NCBI GenBank assembly: GCA_017445845.1
Contig: JAFSRY010000060.1
Coordinates: 1 to 57,268, forward strand
Source of the DNA: Prevotella sp.
GTDB lineage: Bacteria > Bacteroidota > Bacteroidia > Bacteroidales > Bacteroidaceae
DNA: 57,268 nt
Reading direction: 5' to 3'
Shown: piece after piece, positions 14,992 to 54,461 of the stretch
Layout of the letters: each line of letters begins with the position of its first letter
Numbering within the stretch: the first letter of the stretch is position 1
Made by a program: the position numbers and the translations under genes
The notes under the pieces: model-generated
The model's database searches: none
Told to the model about the DNA's origin: nothing
What the model saw: only the letters and a program-made list of their open reading frames with translations

Positions 14992-15076
14992 AAACAGTCC
15001 ATCGAAACTCACGATAGAAAGTATCGCCACACACGATACTTTGCTTTGTTATTCGTACCTCATTGACGTATGCCTA

Positions 15077-15141
15077 TTATCAGTGTGAGATAATCCTGTT
15101 ATCAGTGTGAGATAATCCTGTTACCAGTGTGAGATAATAAG
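15077..15141. repeat. 22-bp tandem repeat, three copies, between dgt and ftsZ
   Basis: Copies start at 15077, 15099 and 15121. The unit is TTATCAGTGTGAGATAATCC plus TG; copy 3 has one change and is cut short. Each unit holds the inverted pair TTATC / GATAA with a 7-nt loop. The array lies between two convergent genes, so it is in neither promoter. Confidence 0.85.
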
Positions 15142-24252: not shown

Positions 24253-24325
24253 TGTCGTTTCTATCTATCGTTTATCACGATGTTAATTATCTGTATTTCA
24301 ACTACTTATATATGCCACTATTTCC

Positions 24326-24428
24326 AAGCACTGTTAATACTGTTATCAAGCACTGTTAATACTGTTATCAAGCACTGTTAATACTGTTATCAAGCACTGT
24401 TAATACTGTTATCAAGCACTGTTAATAC
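24326..24428. repeat. 22-bp tandem repeat, 4.7 copies, inside the dcw operon
   Basis: Copies start at 24326, 24348, 24370, 24392 and 24414 with period 22 and almost no divergence; the unit is AAGCACTGTTAATACTGTTA plus TC. Within the unit the word ACTGTTA occurs twice. The array fills about half of the 207-bp gap between mraY and murD, so it would be transcribed as part of the long dcw mRNA. Confidence 0.9.
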
Positions 24429-24459
24429 TTCGGCTTCTTTCTGTCGTCCCTGCCAAGTC

Positions 24460-42541: not shown

Positions 42542-43663
42542 TTACTCTTCATCCGCTACTGGGAACTCCATGAGGTAGGCTTTGATGAAACCGTCGATTT
42601 TGCCATCCATGACGGCGTCGACATCGGAGGTCTGGTAGTTGGTACGATGGTCTTTCACGCGGCGGTCATCGAAGACGTAGGAGCGTATCTGCGAGCCCCA
42701 CTCAATCTTCTTCTTTCCTGCCTCGATTTTTGCCTGAGCCTCAAGGCGCTTCTTCATGGCACGATCGTAGAGCTGTGAGCGGAGCAGTGCCATCGCACGC
42801 TCCTTGTTCTTCGGCTGGTCACGCGTCTCGGTGTTCTCGATGAGGATTTCTTCTTCCTCACCGGTGTCAGGGTCGGTATACCAATAGCGCAGGCGGACAC
42901 CCGACTCCACCTTGTTGACATTCTGACCGCCGGCGCCGCTGCTTCGGAAGGTGTCCCACGAGAGCTTGGCGGGGTCTACATAGACTTCAATGGTATCGTC
43001 GACCAAGGGTGTGACGAAGACGGAGGCGAAGGACGTCATGCGCTTACCCTGTGCATTGAAGGGACTGACGCGCACCAGCCGATGGACGCCATTCTCACTC
43101 TTCAGGTAGCCGTAGGCATATTCGCCGCCTTCAATCTCCATGGTAACACTCTTGATGCCGGCCTCATCGCCTTCCTGCAGGTTAGAAATGGTTACCTTAT
43201 GACCATTGGCCTCAGCCCAGCGCATATACATACGCATGAGCATCGATGCCCAGTCCTGACTCTCGGTGCCCCCGGCACCCGAATTGATCTTCAGCACACA
43301 GTCCATCGGGTCTTCCTTCTGGCGGAGCATGTTCTTCAGTTCCAGGTCTTCAATGGTAGCGATGGCCTTACGGTAGTCATCGTCGACTTCCTGTTCAGTG
43401 ACAAGTTCATCCCGATAGAAGTCGAAGGCCAGCTGCAGTTCGTCGGCCTGTTGTCGGGCCTCTTTATATCCTTTGAGCCATCTCTCGATGCCCTTTACCT
43501 TCTTCATCTGTTCCTGCGCCCGCTTGGGGTCCTCCCAGAAGTCAGGGGCCTGCGTGCGCAGCTGTTCCTCTTCGAACTCCACCTGCTTCTGTTCGATATT
43601 CAGGTATTTATAGAGTGCTTCAACGCGTGTCAACACGTCCTTCAATTGCTCTTGCGTAATCAT
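42542..43663 (-). CDS. prfB: Peptide chain release factor 2
   Basis: 373 residues. RF2 reads UAA and UGA stop codons. Signatures: the tripeptide anticodon SPF (200-202) that marks RF2, and GGQ (245-247) in RSSGAGGQNVNKVESGVR, which triggers peptide release. Many prfB genes need a +1 frameshift near codon 25. Here the corresponding stretch (YKYLNIEQK) reads straight through, with no in-frame UGA and no CUUUGA slip site, so synthesis is not autoregulated that way. An array of heptad repeats lies directly upstream of the start. Confidence 0.96.
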   Translation of the reverse strand: MITQEQLKDVLTRVEALYKYLNIEQKQVEFEEEQLRTQAPDFWEDPKRAQEQMKKVKGIERWLKGYKEARQQADELQLAFDFYRDELVTEQEVDDDYRKAIATIEDLELKNMLRQKEDPMDCVLKINSGAGGTESQDWASMLMRMYMRWAEANGHKVTISNLQEGDEAGIKSVTMEIEGGEYAYGYLKSENGVHRLVRVSPFNAQGKRMTSFASVFVTPLVDDTIEVYVDPAKLSWDTFRSSGAGGQNVNKVESGVRLRYWYTDPDTGEEEEILIENTETRDQPKNKERAMALLRSQLYDRAMKKRLEAQAKIEAGKKKIEWGSQIRSYVFDDRRVKDHRTNYQTSDVDAVMDGKIDGFIKAYLMEFPVADEE

Positions 43664-43669
43664 TTGCCT

Positions 43670-43711
43670 TAATTAGTAATTAGAAATCAGTAATGAGTAA
43701 TTATGATTACT
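43670..43711. repeat. Heptanucleotide tract, left arm of an inverted pair
   Basis: In perfect 7-bp register: TAATTAG, TAATTAG, AAATCAG, TAATGAG, TAATTAT, GATTACT. The same series in inverse orientation occurs at 44136-44176. It starts 7 bp upstream of the prfB start codon and runs into the 3' end of the four-helix-bundle gene. Confidence 0.8.
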
Positions 43712-44080
43712 CAGACTGTTTTCGTTTTACTGTTCCTGTTATGCTCGTTAATAATTTTATTATCTCTTCATTATCACTGACGATAGAATTGAATTCCTTA
43801 TTAGAAAGATACCCACCGGAATGAAGACGGTTTATCCAAAAAAACGTGTTTCGTTGGCTTCCTTTAGGGCTATTGTGAGTTTCGTTAGAAAGTCCGGTCT
43901 GCTCTGCGCATATTGGCTTTCGGCGATGTTGGCACCTATGCTCGTGCCGCTTCTCAGTACCTGCTTAAGTATTTCAACATTGCTGTTTGGCTTTTCCATC
44001 AGATATTGGTACATATTGACCACTCTATTACCGAATTCTTCCGTCTTTCCCACAATTATATTTGGCCGCTTCTCCAACAT
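43707..44080 (-). pseudogene. Four-helix-bundle (S23/IVP family) protein gene, frameshifted
   Basis: The intact frame from 44080 gives 82 residues (EFGNRVVNMYQYLMEK, LRSGTSIGANIAESQYAQS, FLTKLTIALKEANETR), the first two thirds of a four-helix-bundle protein of the 23S-rRNA intervening-sequence family. It stops at 43832 just after a run of seven T (minus strand; A run 43838-43844). One extra T would restore the frame and give FWINRLHSGGYLSNKEFNS and a tail to 43707, a total of about 124 residues, the normal family length. So it is a fresh frameshift, a slippage switch, or a sequencing error. The gene lies inside an inverted pair of heptad tracts. The function of free-standing members is not established. 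Confidence 0.8.
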
Positions 44081-44135
44081 TCCAACAGTACTAACTACTT
44101 TTCTTTATTAATAATCATTCTTCACCATCGAAGGT

Positions 44136-44176
44136 AATCATAATTACTAATTACTCATTACTAATTACTAATTATT
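44136..44176. repeat. Heptanucleotide tract, right arm of the inverted pair
   Basis: AATTACT, AATTACT, CATTACT, AATTACT, AATTATT in 7-bp register at 44142-44176, preceded by TAATCAT. Its complement repeats the left arm, including the shared inner end GTAATTATGATTA. It abuts the stop codon of the acyl-CoA synthetase gene. Confidence 0.8.
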
Positions 44177-45985
44177 TTATTCCTCGTACATCTTGTCAAT
44201 GACTTCCTTGTAATTCTTGGCGATGGTGGCACGTTTGATTTTCAGAGTGTTCGTCAGTTCACCGTTTTCCATGGTGAAGTGGTGAGGAAGGAGGGTGATG
44301 CGCTTCACCTGCTCATAGTAGGCCAGGGGCTGCTGGAGGGTGTTGATGCGCTCCATCACCATGTCGTGAATCTGCTTGTTCTGACACAGTTCCTCTTTGG
44401 TGGTATATTTGATGCCGTGTTCCTTGGCATAGTCTTCGAGCAGGGAGAATTCCGGCACGATGAGGGCCGACACGAACTTCCGTTCGTTGGCGATGATGGT
44501 AATCTGGTCGATGTACCGGTCGACGAGCAGCATGGCCTCGACCATCTGTGGAGCGATGTATTTGCCGTTCGAGGTCTTGAAGAGGTCCTTGATGCGTTCG
44601 GTGAGGAACAGCTCGCCGTTGCGAATGTAACCGGCATCACCTGTATGGAAGAAGCCGTCGGCGTCGAAGGCCTGCTTGTTGGCATCGTCACGCTTGTAGT
44701 AGCCTTGGGTGATAGTCGGGCCCTTCAGCAGAATCTCGTTCTCGTCGGAAATCTTAATCTCGATACCTTCCACAGGCCGACCCACCGAACCGATGGTATA
44801 GGGCTCGTTCATGTGGTCGCACGACACCGTGGCGAGACTCTCGGTAAGACCGTAGCCCACCATCATGAAGATACCGAGCGAGTGGATGAACTCCTCCACC
44901 TCGGGCGACACCGTGGCACCCGCCGTCGGAAAGAAATGGGCGTTCTCCAGTCCGAGTTGCTTACGCACGAGGCTGAGCACCGACGAATTGATCATCTTGT
45001 ATTCCAATGCCAAGGCCAGCGAGGGACGCTTGCCGTGGGCCAGACAGTCTACATTGTATTTCTTTCCTACTTCCAGTGCGTGGCGGAACAGTTTCTGTTG
45101 CATGGCACCCGAGCTTTCTATCTTCTGCTTGACACCCATGTAGACCTTCTCCCAGAAACGCGGCACACTCGACATACACGTCGGATGGGTCTCGCGCATC
45201 GACTGCTGTATCTCCTGCGGATAGGTGTTCACGATGAGTTCGGCACCTTCCGTCAGTGCCAGATAACTCCAGCCACGCTCGAAGATATGTGTCACAGGCA
45301 GGAACTGCATCACACGGTCTTTCTCACCCACAGGCACACACTTGTCGTTTGCGGTCATGGCTGCATGATACTGGCCGTAAGTCAAGATGACGCCCTTCGA
45401 CTCGCCAGTCGTACCGCTGGTATAGAGAATGTTGCATACATCTTCCATCCGACGCTCTGCCCACAAGGCCTCCACCTGAGCCTGACGCGGCAGGTTCTCA
45501 CCCAAGGCGATAAAGTCTTCGAAGAAAAGTGAGTTGGGGTCGTGCTTCGAGACACGCACCGACGGGTCAAAAATGATGATGCGCTCCAGCGTCGGACACA
45601 GGCCGATGATACGGTGAGCCTTGTCATACTGCGCCTGCTCGCCAACAAAGAGGAAGCGAATCTGCGCATCGTTCACCATGTATTGAATCTGCTGTTCTGA
45701 ACTGGTGGCATAGAAAGGGATTGTCACCGCACGGATACCATAGGCTCCGAAATCAACATAATGATACTGCACACAGTTCTGCGCAAACACACCAATGTTC
45801 TCCTGAACGCCGACACCCAGATTCAACAGTGCATTCGACACCTGCTTCACGCGCAGCGAAAACTGGTTCCACGACAGCTGCTTCCACTTCAGCGAACCGA
45901 ACTGGCGGAATGTCATCACCGCTTTCTGTCCGTATTTCTTCGCCTGCTCATGGACGAGCACTGCCAGATGTTGATTGTTTTGCAT
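44177..45985 (-). CDS. Long-chain fatty acid--CoA ligase (AMP-forming)
   Basis: 602 residues of the ANL superfamily. The P-loop ILYTSGTTGESKGVILTY lies near residue 190; GYGLTESLATVS and TGDAGYIRNGELFLTERIKD are motifs A5 and A7/A8; SNGKYIAPQ precedes the C-terminal domain. It activates a fatty acid to acyl-CoA through an acyl-AMP. Bacteroidales carry several such long-chain ligases; the chain length cannot be read from sequence. It has its own promoter and is not in an operon with prfB. Confidence 0.92.
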   Translation of the reverse strand: MQNNQHLAVLVHEQAKKYGQKAVMTFRQFGSLKWKQLSWNQFSLRVKQVSNALLNLGVGVQENIGVFAQNCVQYHYVDFGAYGIRAVTIPFYATSSEQQIQYMVNDAQIRFLFVGEQAQYDKAHRIIGLCPTLERIIIFDPSVRVSKHDPNSLFFEDFIALGENLPRQAQVEALWAERRMEDVCNILYTSGTTGESKGVILTYGQYHAAMTANDKCVPVGEKDRVMQFLPVTHIFERGWSYLALTEGAELIVNTYPQEIQQSMRETHPTCMSSVPRFWEKVYMGVKQKIESSGAMQQKLFRHALEVGKKYNVDCLAHGKRPSLALALEYKMINSSVLSLVRKQLGLENAHFFPTAGATVSPEVEEFIHSLGIFMMVGYGLTESLATVSCDHMNEPYTIGSVGRPVEGIEIKISDENEILLKGPTITQGYYKRDDANKQAFDADGFFHTGDAGYIRNGELFLTERIKDLFKTSNGKYIAPQMVEAMLLVDRYIDQITIIANERKFVSALIVPEFSLLEDYAKEHGIKYTTKEELCQNKQIHDMVMERINTLQQPLAYYEQVKRITLLPHHFTMENGELTNTLKIKRATIAKNYKEVIDKMYEE

Positions 45986-52066: not shown

Positions 52067-52663
52067 TCAGAGGAAGAGCGGTGCTTCAGGTCCCATGTTG
52101 AATAGGAGGTCGAGGATGCTGAGGTTGGGCTGGAATCCGTTTCGTTGTCGATAGACCTGATAATAGGGCCGCGGCAGAAAGTCAGGGTCGGGCTGTTGGT
52201 GCTTGGGGTGGATGACTTGTCGGAAGTCGGCGAAGTCTTCCTTGATGGGCTCAGACAGTAGGGTTGGAGGCTCGATGTCGAGCAAACGGCAGAGCGTCAG
52301 GGTGATGTCCATGTTGTAATCGTAGAGGTCTGTCCATCGGCGTTCCTCGAAGAAAGGCCTGATGTCATCGGCATAAAAGAGGAAGAAGGGGCTGTCGCCA
52401 TAGGCTGTGCAGAGGGCATTCCAATGTTCGCTTCGCCATTTGCCGTGGTTTGAAGTTTTAGGTTTGGGATTTGAGGATTTGGAGGTGTGTTCTACGGGAA
52501 CGGTGAGGGTTTGCAGTCCGTTGGAAGTGGCGATGGTGCAACGGTTGTGGAAAGACTGTTTACGAAATGGTTCGCCATGATCAATGAATACGTTGTCATA
52601 GCGAACCAGTTTCTGATACCACTGAATGGGTCCGAAGTAAGTAGACGAAAGGACAGCTTTCAT
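52067..52663 (-). CDS. WbqC family protein
   Basis: 198 residues matching the WbqC-like family: LSSTYFGPIQWYQKLVRYD at the start, NRCTIATSNGLQTLTVPV, and a C-terminal PYYQVYRQRNGFQPNLSILDLLFNMG. WbqC proteins occur in O-antigen and other clusters, but their activity is not well defined. The middle (residues about 65-72) has an odd Ser/Lys/Asn/Pro-rich insert. It lies last in a dapB-lepB-wbqC run, an order common in Bacteroidales, with a duplicated intergenic block separating it from lepB. Confidence 0.8.
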   Translation of the reverse strand: MKAVLSSTYFGPIQWYQKLVRYDNVFIDHGEPFRKQSFHNRCTIATSNGLQTLTVPVEHTSKSSNPKPKTSNHGKWRSEHWNALCTAYGDSPFFLFYADDIRPFFEERRWTDLYDYNMDITLTLCRLLDIEPPTLLSEPIKEDFADFRQVIHPKHQQPDPDFLPRPYYQVYRQRNGFQPNLSILDLLFNMGPEAPLFL

Positions 52664-52785
52664 AAAATGAGTAATGAGTAATGAGTTAGTCGTTTGGTCA
52701 TTTTGTCGTTTAGTAGATTAGGAAAGTTACCTGCCAGCCAAGGTATTATCCCCAATCTACTAAACCACCAATCTACCAAACCATC
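52656..52785. repeat. Duplicated intergenic block, copy A (lepB-wbqC gap)
   Basis: Shares about 130 bp with 54307-54450. In order: CTTTCATAAAATGAGTAAT, heptads AATGAGT, TTAGTCGTTTGGTCATTT, GTTTAGTAGATT, AGGAAAGTTACCTGCCAGCC, AAGGTA, then CAATCTAC-rich words. In this copy GTTTAGTAGATT (52708-52719) has a perfect inverted partner (52754-52765). It begins inside the first codons of wbqC. Confidence 0.85.
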
Positions 52786-52792
52786 AACCTAC

Positions 52793-54304
52793 CTATTTGA
52801 TTTTGTCCACTATTTTGCCCAAACGGTTCCAGCGGATGCCGGAGAATCCTCGGCGGTCGGGATCTGACGACCACCAGATGAAGATGGGTTTGCCCACTAT
52901 ATGATCTTCGGGTACGAAGCCCCAATAGCGGGAGTCGGCAGAGTTGTGGCGGTTGTCGCCCTGCATCCAGTAGTAGTCGAGTTTGAAGGTATAGCTCGTT
53001 GCGAGTTGCCCGTTGATGTATATCTGTTCATTTTTCACCTCGAGTTCGTTGTCTTCGTAGACGCGGATGGGACGTTCGTAGATGGCGATGTTATCGACGG
53101 TAAGCTCGATGGAATCGCCTTTTTTGGGTATCCATATAGGTCCGTAGTTGTCGCAGGTCCATCCCGTTATCATGTTTTGCGGATAGAGGTCGCCAACGTG
53201 GTAGTCGTCGACGATGGCAAGGGAGTCAACCAGGTCGGTACGTTCCTTCAGTGCCTTGGCGGCACGGGCCGTCAGCGGCATCTGGATGAAGCGGTTGTAG
53301 GGTGTGACGGCTCCGTTCTGATGTAGCATTTCCTTTCCTCCACTTGAGAGGTTGAGGTCTTCGGCCGTAATTGCCAGTTCTTTCAGTAGGTCGTCGGTGA
53401 GTTGAGCCCCTTCGCGGAAGGTGACGTTATATCGGTACTGCACATTGTCAGGTTCCTTGTTGGGTTGGCCGTCGAGATAGACGATGTGGTCCTTGATCTG
53501 CAGTGTCTGGCCGGGCAGTCCCACGCACCGCTTCACATAGTTCTCGCGGCGGTCGGTCGGCCGTGAGTCGATGTCGCCATATTCGTGAGGATTGTTCTTG
53601 ATATAGTTTCGTCCGACCGCATAGATGAAGGCGAAGTAGTCGTGTTGCTGCTGATGATTGAGGTCGGCAGGGTTGACGGGATTAGGGTAGTTGTTCTCGT
53701 ATATTTCCCGTCCCAGCTCGTAGCACATGCGGTAGTATTCAGTCTGGTAACGGATATCGGTGCAGATGGTGTCGCCTGCAGGATAGTTGAAGACGACGAT
53801 GTCATTCAACTGCACGTCGCCCAATCCTTTTACTCGTCGATAGTCCCAGTGTGGCCACTCGATATACGACTTTGTTCCGAAGAGCGGCATCGTGTGCTGA
53901 GTGAGCGGCATGGTGAGCGGCGTCTGCGGAATGCGCGGACCGTAGGCCACTTTGGAGACGAAGAGGTAGTCGCCAGTCAACAGAGACTTCTCCAATGATG
54001 ATGACGGGATGACGTAGTTCTGGAAGAAGAACTGGTTGATGAAATAGACTGCGACGAGGGCAAAGACGATAGCGTCGACCCACGACATGACGGCGCGCAC
54101 GGGTTTCTCGGCATCCTTCCACCACTGCCAGTTGATTTTCTTTGATATATAGGCGTCGTAGATGAACGGAATGACGATGAGTCCGAGCCACGACTTCACC
54201 CAATAGAGGAATGCGAGATAGCAGGCGAGTGCGATGATGAACTTCACCCATTGCAGAGTCTTGTTGACCTCTTTCTTCTCCTTTACACGTTTCTTTGTTG
54301 ACAT
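52793..54304 (-). CDS. lepB: Signal peptidase I
   Basis: 503 residues from the ATG at 54304; a longer frame exists but enters the repeat block. It removes signal peptides from exported proteins. Membrane helices lie at about 20-50 and 75-95; the nucleophile is Ser103 in VIPSSSLEKSL and the general base Lys258 in NYVKRCVGLPG; GDNRHNSADSRYWGFVP is box E. It is larger than E. coli LepB (324), with insertions between the boxes, as usual in Bacteroidetes. Many Bacteroidales carry two lepB genes in tandem here; this locus has one. Confidence 0.93.
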   Translation of the reverse strand: MSTKKRVKEKKEVNKTLQWVKFIIALACYLAFLYWVKSWLGLIVIPFIYDAYISKKINWQWWKDAEKPVRAVMSWVDAIVFALVAVYFINQFFFQNYVIPSSSLEKSLLTGDYLFVSKVAYGPRIPQTPLTMPLTQHTMPLFGTKSYIEWPHWDYRRVKGLGDVQLNDIVVFNYPAGDTICTDIRYQTEYYRMCYELGREIYENNYPNPVNPADLNHQQQHDYFAFIYAVGRNYIKNNPHEYGDIDSRPTDRRENYVKRCVGLPGQTLQIKDHIVYLDGQPNKEPDNVQYRYNVTFREGAQLTDDLLKELAITAEDLNLSSGGKEMLHQNGAVTPYNRFIQMPLTARAAKALKERTDLVDSLAIVDDYHVGDLYPQNMITGWTCDNYGPIWIPKKGDSIELTVDNIAIYERPIRVYEDNELEVKNEQIYINGQLATSYTFKLDYYWMQGDNRHNSADSRYWGFVPEDHIVGKPIFIWWSSDPDRRGFSGIRWNRLGKIVDKIK

Positions 54305-54306
54305 AC

Positions 54307-54450
54307 TTTCATAAAATGAGTAATTAGTAATGAGTAATGAGTAATTAGTTAGTCGTTTGGTCATTTAGTCGTTTAGTAGATTAGGAAAGTTACCTGCCAG
54401 CCAAGGTAATATCTCCAATCTAACAATCTACCAAACCACCAATCTACCAA
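54307..54450. repeat. Duplicated intergenic block, copy B (dapB-lepB gap)
   Basis: The partner of 52656-52785, with two more heptads and some changes in the right part, where the inverted partner of GTTTAGTAGATT is degraded. It retains the words CTTTCATAAAATGAG that in copy A include the wbqC start codon. Confidence 0.85.
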
Positions 54451-54461
54451 GATATAACTAA

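Follow-up and report, generated by a model that had tools for sequence, protein, structure and literature searches.

An S23 gene between inverted heptad arrays in Prevotella as a putative DNA-level mobile element outside ribosomal RNA

Between prfB and an acyl-CoA ligase-like gene of a Prevotella sp. contig lies a 505-nt cassette that is probably a now-broken copy of a small, putative mobile element that acts at the DNA level and carries no gene other than S23. The cassette consists of a 41-nt heptad tract, a minus-strand gene of the S23 family (23S_rRNA_IVP; PF05635), whose members are four-helix-bundle proteins, and an inverted 41-nt tract; it lies in a stretch of 57,268 nucleotides analysed as a whole (the window). 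A wider reading, to which we give an even chance, places the cassette in a class of elements found in many phyla, with ends set by their architecture (two matching inverted arrays of free 7–8-nt units) and a single small non-transposase gene, S23. Such a class would be the source of the heptamers of Xanthomonas, Nostoc/Anabaena and perhaps Beggiatoaceae, and the intervening sequences (IVSs) of 23S rRNA would be its insertions in rRNA. The presence of S23p in rRNA IVSs, the IVS stems and RNase III excision are already known, and mobility of IVSs has already been proposed. What appears to be new, within a search largely confined to open-access literature, is the general occurrence of S23 cassettes outside rRNA, with arms that match within a locus, differ between loci and co-vary with the S23 protein, together with copies that have no gene, pairs of filled and empty sites and the link to orphan heptamers of other phyla. 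That search yielded no paper recognised as connecting free-standing S23 genes to heptamer arrays.

The two arms of the window cassette occupy positions 43670–43710, 3′ of the S23 gene, where TAATTAG/TAATGAG heptads are read on the plus strand, and 44134–44174, 5′ of it. They are inverted, 41 nt long each, 93% complementary and spaced 423 nt apart; both have a period of 7, and the sequence GTAATTATGATTA, at 43697–43709 (+) and 44135–44147 (−), forms the inner end common to both. The flanks reach a local score of 32, versus a best of 13 in 2000 shuffles and a best of 17 in 4000 random window pairs off the site, which rules out chance AT-rich tracts as the origin of the arms. A preliminary description, made from the letters alone, had reported inverted heptad tracts of about 40 bp with a common inner end, almost touching both neighbours, and the measurements agree. 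The downstream gene, prfB (42542–43663, −; TIGR00020), starts at 43663, 6 nt from the nearer arm, and the stop codon of the upstream long-chain acyl-CoA ligase-like gene (44177–45985, −; PF00501) lies at 44177, 2 nt from the other; both are co-directional with S23. The same description had proposed an IVS-like layout living outside rRNA. This holds: as in rRNA IVSs, complementary ends able to form a stem enclose an S23p ORF in the loop, the location between prfB and the ligase gene is not inside an rRNA gene, and an Rfam search of 20 S23 loci returned no match, excluding rRNA or a known RNA family as their location. Used as a query in a phage search, the cassette found no match. Elsewhere in the window, perfect or near-perfect 22-nt tandem repeats at 24325–24429 and 15073–15138 (CAAGCACTGTTAATACTGTTAT ×4.8 and CCTGTTATCAGTGTGAGATAAT ×3) are unrelated to the heptads, and positions 224–497 form a low-complexity purine-rich stretch with a 123-nt direct repeat.

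Is the gene between the arms a genuine S23 gene? Over 82 codons it matches both PF05635 (E 1.3e-14; 54.8 bits versus a cut-off of 33.8) and TIGR02436 (E 1.7e-16; 60.4 bits versus a cut-off of 24), so that the family named in the preliminary description stands, while the gene as an intact reading frame does not. The 82-aa ORF (43832–44080, −) ends early at a frameshift, with a stop after 'ETRFFG', and the C-terminal part (43713–43841, −) continues in another frame past a seven-T run; this 43-aa remainder alone gave no match in a Pfam search. Intact S23 ORFs of about 120 aa, the length usual for PF05635/TIGR02436, are present at the prfB/ligase site in two relatives (120 and 123 aa). The single S23 copy of a gammaproteobacterial genome, G667, also breaks at a mid-gene T run (L363:1690), as the window copy does at 43841, in a different codon. 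These frameshifts may be decay, assembly error or slippage, which look alike here. At another locus of the genome that contains the window (L010; G000 C94 76563–79787), we noted a weak PF05635 match, below the cut-off, in a 267-codon open frame that is surrounded by 9-nt repeats ATGAGTCCC; the single weak RVT_1 match of that genome lies about 25 kb away on the same contig. We know of no catalytic motif in S23. By sequence, its only solved relative is 2gsc, an uncharacterised protein (PDB sequence match), and the S23p of X. campestris is described as a homopentamer (PMC4990558). A multi-subunit toroid might face an array of 7-nt period, an attractive but speculative picture.

PF05635 was detected in 87 of 100 genomes of the genus, with up to 15 copies each, in 157 of the 198 genomes of a phylum sample and in 77 of 369 in a sample that is gammaproteobacterial by its centre, an Alcanivorax. 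Most of the S23 genes sampled have matching arms. The two flanks of one gene score at least 16 in 81 of 115 cases in the genus, versus 44 of 1364 pairs that combine the flanks of two loci and none of 345 shuffles; this genus sample comprises 30 program-chosen loci and 80 regions picked from among the matches listed, and is not random because the latter were mostly taken best-scoring first. In it, one broken gene (L014) is counted twice, and the S23 profile found a match in only 110 of 120 loci (none in L004, L005 and L009). Since the profile also misses the window copy, that copy stands outside the sample and was assessed with Pfam instead. At the same threshold, other Bacteroidota gave 10 of 30 versus 2 of 236 mixed pairs. 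A threshold of 14 was used for the remaining sets, for the counts of periods and for the mismatches outside the genus. At this level, own flanks match in 14 of 25 loci of named Bacteroidota (versus 7 of 191) and 33 of 53 in other named phyla (versus 4 of 418), with 78 of 80 named-genome loci usable, in 19 of 29 of the gammaproteobacterial sample (versus 6 of 279) and in 15 of 21 for three named genomes together with ten cyanobacterial plasmid loci (versus 5 of 201; 23 loci given). One locus of the gammaproteobacterial and cyanobacterial set (L306) is the same place as one in the named set (L262). Loci L302–L305 were omitted from the flank-score and mismatch counts of that set, L302 actually being a new gene. 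The 34 of 115 genus flank pairs that score below 16, some with no visible arms, count against the reading as an element.

The arms of one locus match each other, and their 7–8-nt units differ between loci: GGAGTTAAG, GTTGACGAG, GTCGTTTA, GGTGAGA, TAATGCA, TAGGGAA, GGGAACA and more. The best period is 7 in 15 of 16 gammaproteobacterial, 23 of 37 named and 32 of 86 genus arms, with period 8 best in a further 21 of the 86, and in 12 of 15 cyanobacterial arms, a set in which L302–L305 were kept and which may therefore repeat arms of the named set. Arms with no clear period number 19 in the genus, 6 in the named, 3 in the cyanobacterial and 1 in the gammaproteobacterial set, versus 80, 34, 14 and 16 after shuffling. 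Most upstream arms are rich in G and poor in C (71 of 81 in the genus, 85 of 92 elsewhere). At one locus (L069; G094 C4 43500–52200), three similar S23 copies stand within 6 kb, with arms whose unit contains an inner GCAGC..GCTGC hairpin.

Armed S23 genes recur beside different neighbours, a check that the preliminary description had proposed: the genus sample alone contains 68 flanking-gene pairs, two of them with one neighbour missing, and other phyla add more. Neighbours were taken by a crude longest-ORF rule and named by eye, except prfB, the ligase gene and annotated plasmid genes such as frdA/frdB and accB/accC. Most cassettes abut their neighbours, lying within 30 nt of the upstream gene in 67 of 79 cases and of the downstream gene in 55 of 79. 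At 52 distinct sites of the genus, S23 lies in sense between two co-directional genes and at none in antisense (14 mixed, 2 incomplete), and control genes gave 48 sense, 8 antisense and 34 mixed. Antisense copies do occur outside the genus: 1 of 30 in other Bacteroidota, 0 of 25 in named Bacteroidota and 4 of 53 in other named phyla, 3 of 29 in the gammaproteobacterial sample, and 6 of 21 in the combined named and cyanobacterial plasmid set. Might S23 be a domesticated regulator of host operons? Sense orientation and close abutment would fit this role, as would the long vertical occupation of the largest site (see below). The wide variety of neighbours, the patchy presence at the prfB site and the decay of copies such as those of the window and G667 argue the other way, and we consider a regulatory role hardly likely at all.

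Do arms and gene travel as one unit, as expected of an element? Across pairs at different sites and in different genomes, the similarity of S23 predicts that of the arms (Spearman 0.386 versus a maximum of 0.117 in 1000 permutations; 3125 pairs drawn from the 81 genus loci with arms scoring at least 16). For two loci at different sites, L027 and L063, DNA similarity extends from arm to arm, beginning 75 nt ahead of the domain and ending 88 nt past the stop. When cassettes at the same site are compared, a locus matches its own arms at 16 or above in 44 of 63 cases, versus 63 of 382 across genomes. At the largest site (16 rows, with L014 entered twice), many arms are gapped; own arms reach this score in only 5 of 16 and cross pairs in 25 of 238. 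Its 16 rows form one S23 clade and, because the occupants of such sites do so, much of the distribution in the genus is old and vertical, which counts against the element reading.

Empty sites exist as well. Among 30 prfB loci, 26 have the ligase gene upstream, and three of these contain S23 (the window, G047 and G056). In 22 of the 26, the gap measures −1 to 122 bp with no S23, some retaining a short lone tract, and in the remaining one a DUF4160 and DUF2442 pair occupies the site, as another insert of about 517 bp (L122:952–1486). This comparison is between species of the genus rather than strains; closer pairs were found on cyanobacterial plasmids, where five sites exist in filled and empty forms and arms and gene are present or absent together. 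The 11 aligned empty plasmid loci are 85.7–96.3% identical to the filled query and have no heptads at the site, and the idea that the arms preceded the gene there was rejected on this ground. At site 2, the filled form (pNsp_c) has 506 additional bases; in the heptad-free empty form (pC052_B), the stop codon of one gene overlaps the start of the following one. Site 1 exists in three states, namely empty, S23-bearing and occupied by a gene-less element of 208 bp whose arms are inverted (L384); part of the empty spacer is missing from its filled form. Site 4 is empty in Calothrix NIES-4105; in Nostoc edaphicum it holds the cassette, in antisense, with nrdB and nrdA as neighbours. Inspection by eye of the five filled and empty plasmid sites revealed no common target-site duplication, which counts against the element reading. 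Together with the recurrence beside different neighbours, the empty sites support the free-standing mobile cassette that the preliminary description had put forward. At site 3 (L385:910–1260), an S23 gene appears by eye to be split by a smaller inverted-arm element, a nested insertion. At other cyanobacterial plasmid loci (L318, L321, L327), S23 is flanked by cas6 and cas4 in two cases and by cmr2 and cmr3 in one. A figure legend in PMC10910872 names a 23S rRNA IVP domain, and S23–CRISPR links of this kind may reflect insertions.

The window also carries two gene-less palindromic relatives 1.7 kb apart. The first (52660–52800, +; ends set by eye, match 52686–52793) combines AATGAGT heptads, GTCGTTTG octads, a core GTTACC..GGTA and an CCAATCTACCAAACC array; the second (54315–54455, +; ends by eye) is 87% identical to it. 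The genome to which the window belongs (75.5% complete) contains 38 matches to one such element, 19 of which are 70–110 nt long, the query included. In this family, variable arrays enclose a conserved core, TTTAGGAAAGTTACC..GGTAATATCCCC, which by eye looks like the inner ends of GTCGTTTA-armed S23 cassettes in a relative (L012: TTTAGGGATATTAC..GTAACATCCCC). The inner arm end GTAATTATGATTA recurs at 7 further places of the same genome; the 6 that were read adjoin heptad tracts, some of them not in inverted pairs, and gave no PF05635 match. Here the search went against the preliminary description, for which arms lying widely unpaired and with no S23 gene would tell against a cassette. In our reading, S23-less tracts are gene-less relatives and do not refute the cassette, since gene-less and gene-bearing hairpins have borders in common. 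Lone tracts in one orientation do exist and count against the element reading.

These tracts are the main support for a different view, in which heptad tracts are pre-existing intergenic repeats with a life of their own and S23 genes merely insert into them. Of 11 strict intergenic heptad tracts in about 450 kb, 10 have no S23, some ligase/prfB gaps hold a lone tract, and one gammaproteobacterial genome (G566, see below) has heptad arrays with no detected S23. Pre-existing repeats would nevertheless be expected at the empty plasmid sites, which read without heptads, and would explain neither why arms match best within their own locus even when the site is the same nor why arm type tracks S23 relatedness across sites. 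We therefore rate this view as very unlikely.

Does the element act as DNA or as RNA? The preliminary description had noted that the cassette could fold as one long hairpin, and this is possible: in the predicted transcript the arms pair end to end, at −123.6 versus −104.2 ± 5.9 kcal/mol for 100 shuffles. An RNA-level element would be transcribed into this hairpin, lose its S23 loop to RNase III, keep its arms complementary through RNA pairing and possibly spread by an RNA step. The exclusively sense orientation in the genus favours such a scheme, as does the cutting of S23-bearing rRNA IVSs by RNase III (PMC4990558). Selection on RNA pairing should leave a wobble signature, and both mismatch counts were negative: G-U and C-A mismatches number 107 versus 96 in genus arms, with no excess, and 48 versus 72 in arms from outside the genus, in the opposite direction (p 0.035). 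Moreover, the 19 gene-less copies are randomly oriented (8 sense, 7 antisense, 4 mixed), gene-bearing copies outside the genus can be antisense (e.g., nrdB/nrdA, Nostoc), and a reverse transcriptase match is lacking from 13 of the 23 genus genomes that are at least 90% complete and contain four or more S23 genes. An RNA-level element is thus unlikely, and the lack of a G-U excess, together with the random gene-less orientation, points to matching and movement at the DNA level. Because gene-less copies are random and gene-bearing copies in the genus are sense, never antisense, between co-directional genes, the orientation rule is tied to having the gene, not the hairpin.

A DNA-level element might still depend on others. 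S23 cassettes could be passengers, mobilised in trans by a transposase or reverse transcriptase of a known kind, either Y1/RAYT-like or a DGR or group II RT. The coexistence of a gene-bearing form and gene-less hairpins, as in RAYT and REPIN, is in keeping with this, and S23 shares its fold with Avd, an RT partner (PMC10053308). Among the 23 S23-rich genomes, the 13 lacking RVT_1 stand beside 8 lacking Y1_Tnp, and 6 lack both, so that an RT or Y1 partner is not required in the same genome; the search covered RVT_1 and Y1_Tnp only, and a partner may have been lost. Since S23-rich genomes at least 90% complete exist with no RT or Y1 match, neither is needed to keep many copies. The tally covers 52 genomes, two with 6–7% contamination; among its 9 genus genomes at least 90% complete and devoid of S23, 4 have no RT match and 3 no Y1 match. 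In the genome containing the window, the only RVT_1 match, a weak one (E 6e-4), lies on contig C94, the window being on C16. We consider the passenger reading distinctly unlikely.

How, then, would an S23 element move? In the DNA-level reading that we favour, the S23 protein would recognise, at the level of DNA, the arrays that bound its own element; protein and unit would therefore evolve together. It would promote the copying or insertion of the element and, in trans, of gene-less copies, and the chemistry would fall either to S23 or to the replication and recombination of the host. Template switching or conversion, rather than slow compensatory change, would transfer the sequence of one arm to the other and so keep the two alike, and the array form would ease such copying. 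The element would land between adjacent genes, mostly inside operons, and gene-bearing copies would persist mainly in sense, possibly owing to a dependence on the host transcript. Genes for 23S rRNA would be among the places where the element lands, and the resulting IVSs would be tolerated since RNase III removes the hairpin.

Tandem heptamers have been described in bacteria of other phyla. The intergenic heptamers GGGAATC of Xanthomonas and GGGGA(C/T)T of Nostoc often form inverted pairs (70 cases in Xcc) and show no general association with mobile elements (PMC4692102), and TAACTGA heptamers occur in Beggiatoaceae (PMC4679880); none of the terms S23, 23S and four helix turned up in the main text of either paper. 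We predicted beforehand that a genome rich in GGGAATC would have S23 between GGGAATC arms. Among the 369 gammaproteobacterial genomes, GGGAATC×3 with at most 2 mismatches gave 36 matches in G667 and one in each of four others, overlapping windows of one array being counted separately here and for TAGGGAA below. The prediction is borne out by G667: its single PF05635 match, which is frameshifted, lies between GGGAATC arms, with flanks GGGAATCGGGAATCGTTCAAGC and CGATTCCCTACTCCCCATTCCCGATTCCC, and the inner border CGTTCAAGC is common to this cassette and a gene-less GGGAATC hairpin of the same genome (L364). A backward control pattern (CTAAGGG heptads) gave 10 matches in G455 and 4 in G566, which are heptad arrays of another unit; G455 has one PF05635 match, and G566 is not among the 77 PF05635-positive genomes. 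Heptad arrays thus also occur with no detected S23, which counts against the element reading. The heptamer arrays of cyanobacteria are known as STRR. In Anabaena UHCC 0204, an S23 gene lies between TAGGGAA arms, and TAGGGAA×3 has 120 matches genome-wide, the backward pattern 0.

The element may explain scattered 7-letter repeats of previously unknown origin. If so, two puzzles would become one: the role of S23 and the source of tandem heptamers in bacterial intergenic DNA. Genes for a 'four helix bundle protein' in operons, including CRISPR ones, would then be insertions and not parts of those systems. Because locus-specific units co-vary with the protein, these loci offer many natural protein/target pairs for recognition tests.

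How does the S23 cassette compare with known systems? Avd of diversity-generating retroelements belongs to the same protein family and has the same fold (PMC10053308); it differs in its setting, as the window contig (C16) has no RT and hence none adjacent to S23. In RAYT/REPIN systems, one gene lies between inverted repeats and many gene-less hairpin copies exist. The S23 cassettes likewise combine an inverted-repeat-flanked gene with dispersed gene-less hairpins. They differ from RAYTs in that the gene between the repeats is PF05635 instead of a Y1/HUH transposase, with no Y1_Tnp match in the 75.5%-complete genome of the window, and in that the arms are arrays with free sequence. The cassettes also resemble rRNA IVSs, with which they share a length of about 430–500 nt, a stem of complementary ends and an S23p ORF in the loop. 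In the 23S rRNA IVS of C. burnetii, complementary ends form a 28-bp stem with S23p in its loop, and three tandem heptamers GACAGAT stand just upstream of the S23p start (PMC4990558, which also cites the idea of IVSs as former mobile elements). Excision by RNase III is known for IVSs. Whereas IVSs lie in rRNA, the cassettes described here lie between protein genes and have longer arms, tandem units that vary by locus and gene-less copies. Finally, the heptamers of Xanthomonas, Nostoc and Beggiatoaceae are similarly 7-nt tandem units, mostly intergenic and in many cases inverted pairs, and two such units, GGGAATC and TAGGGAA, are found in this analysis as the arms of S23 genes.
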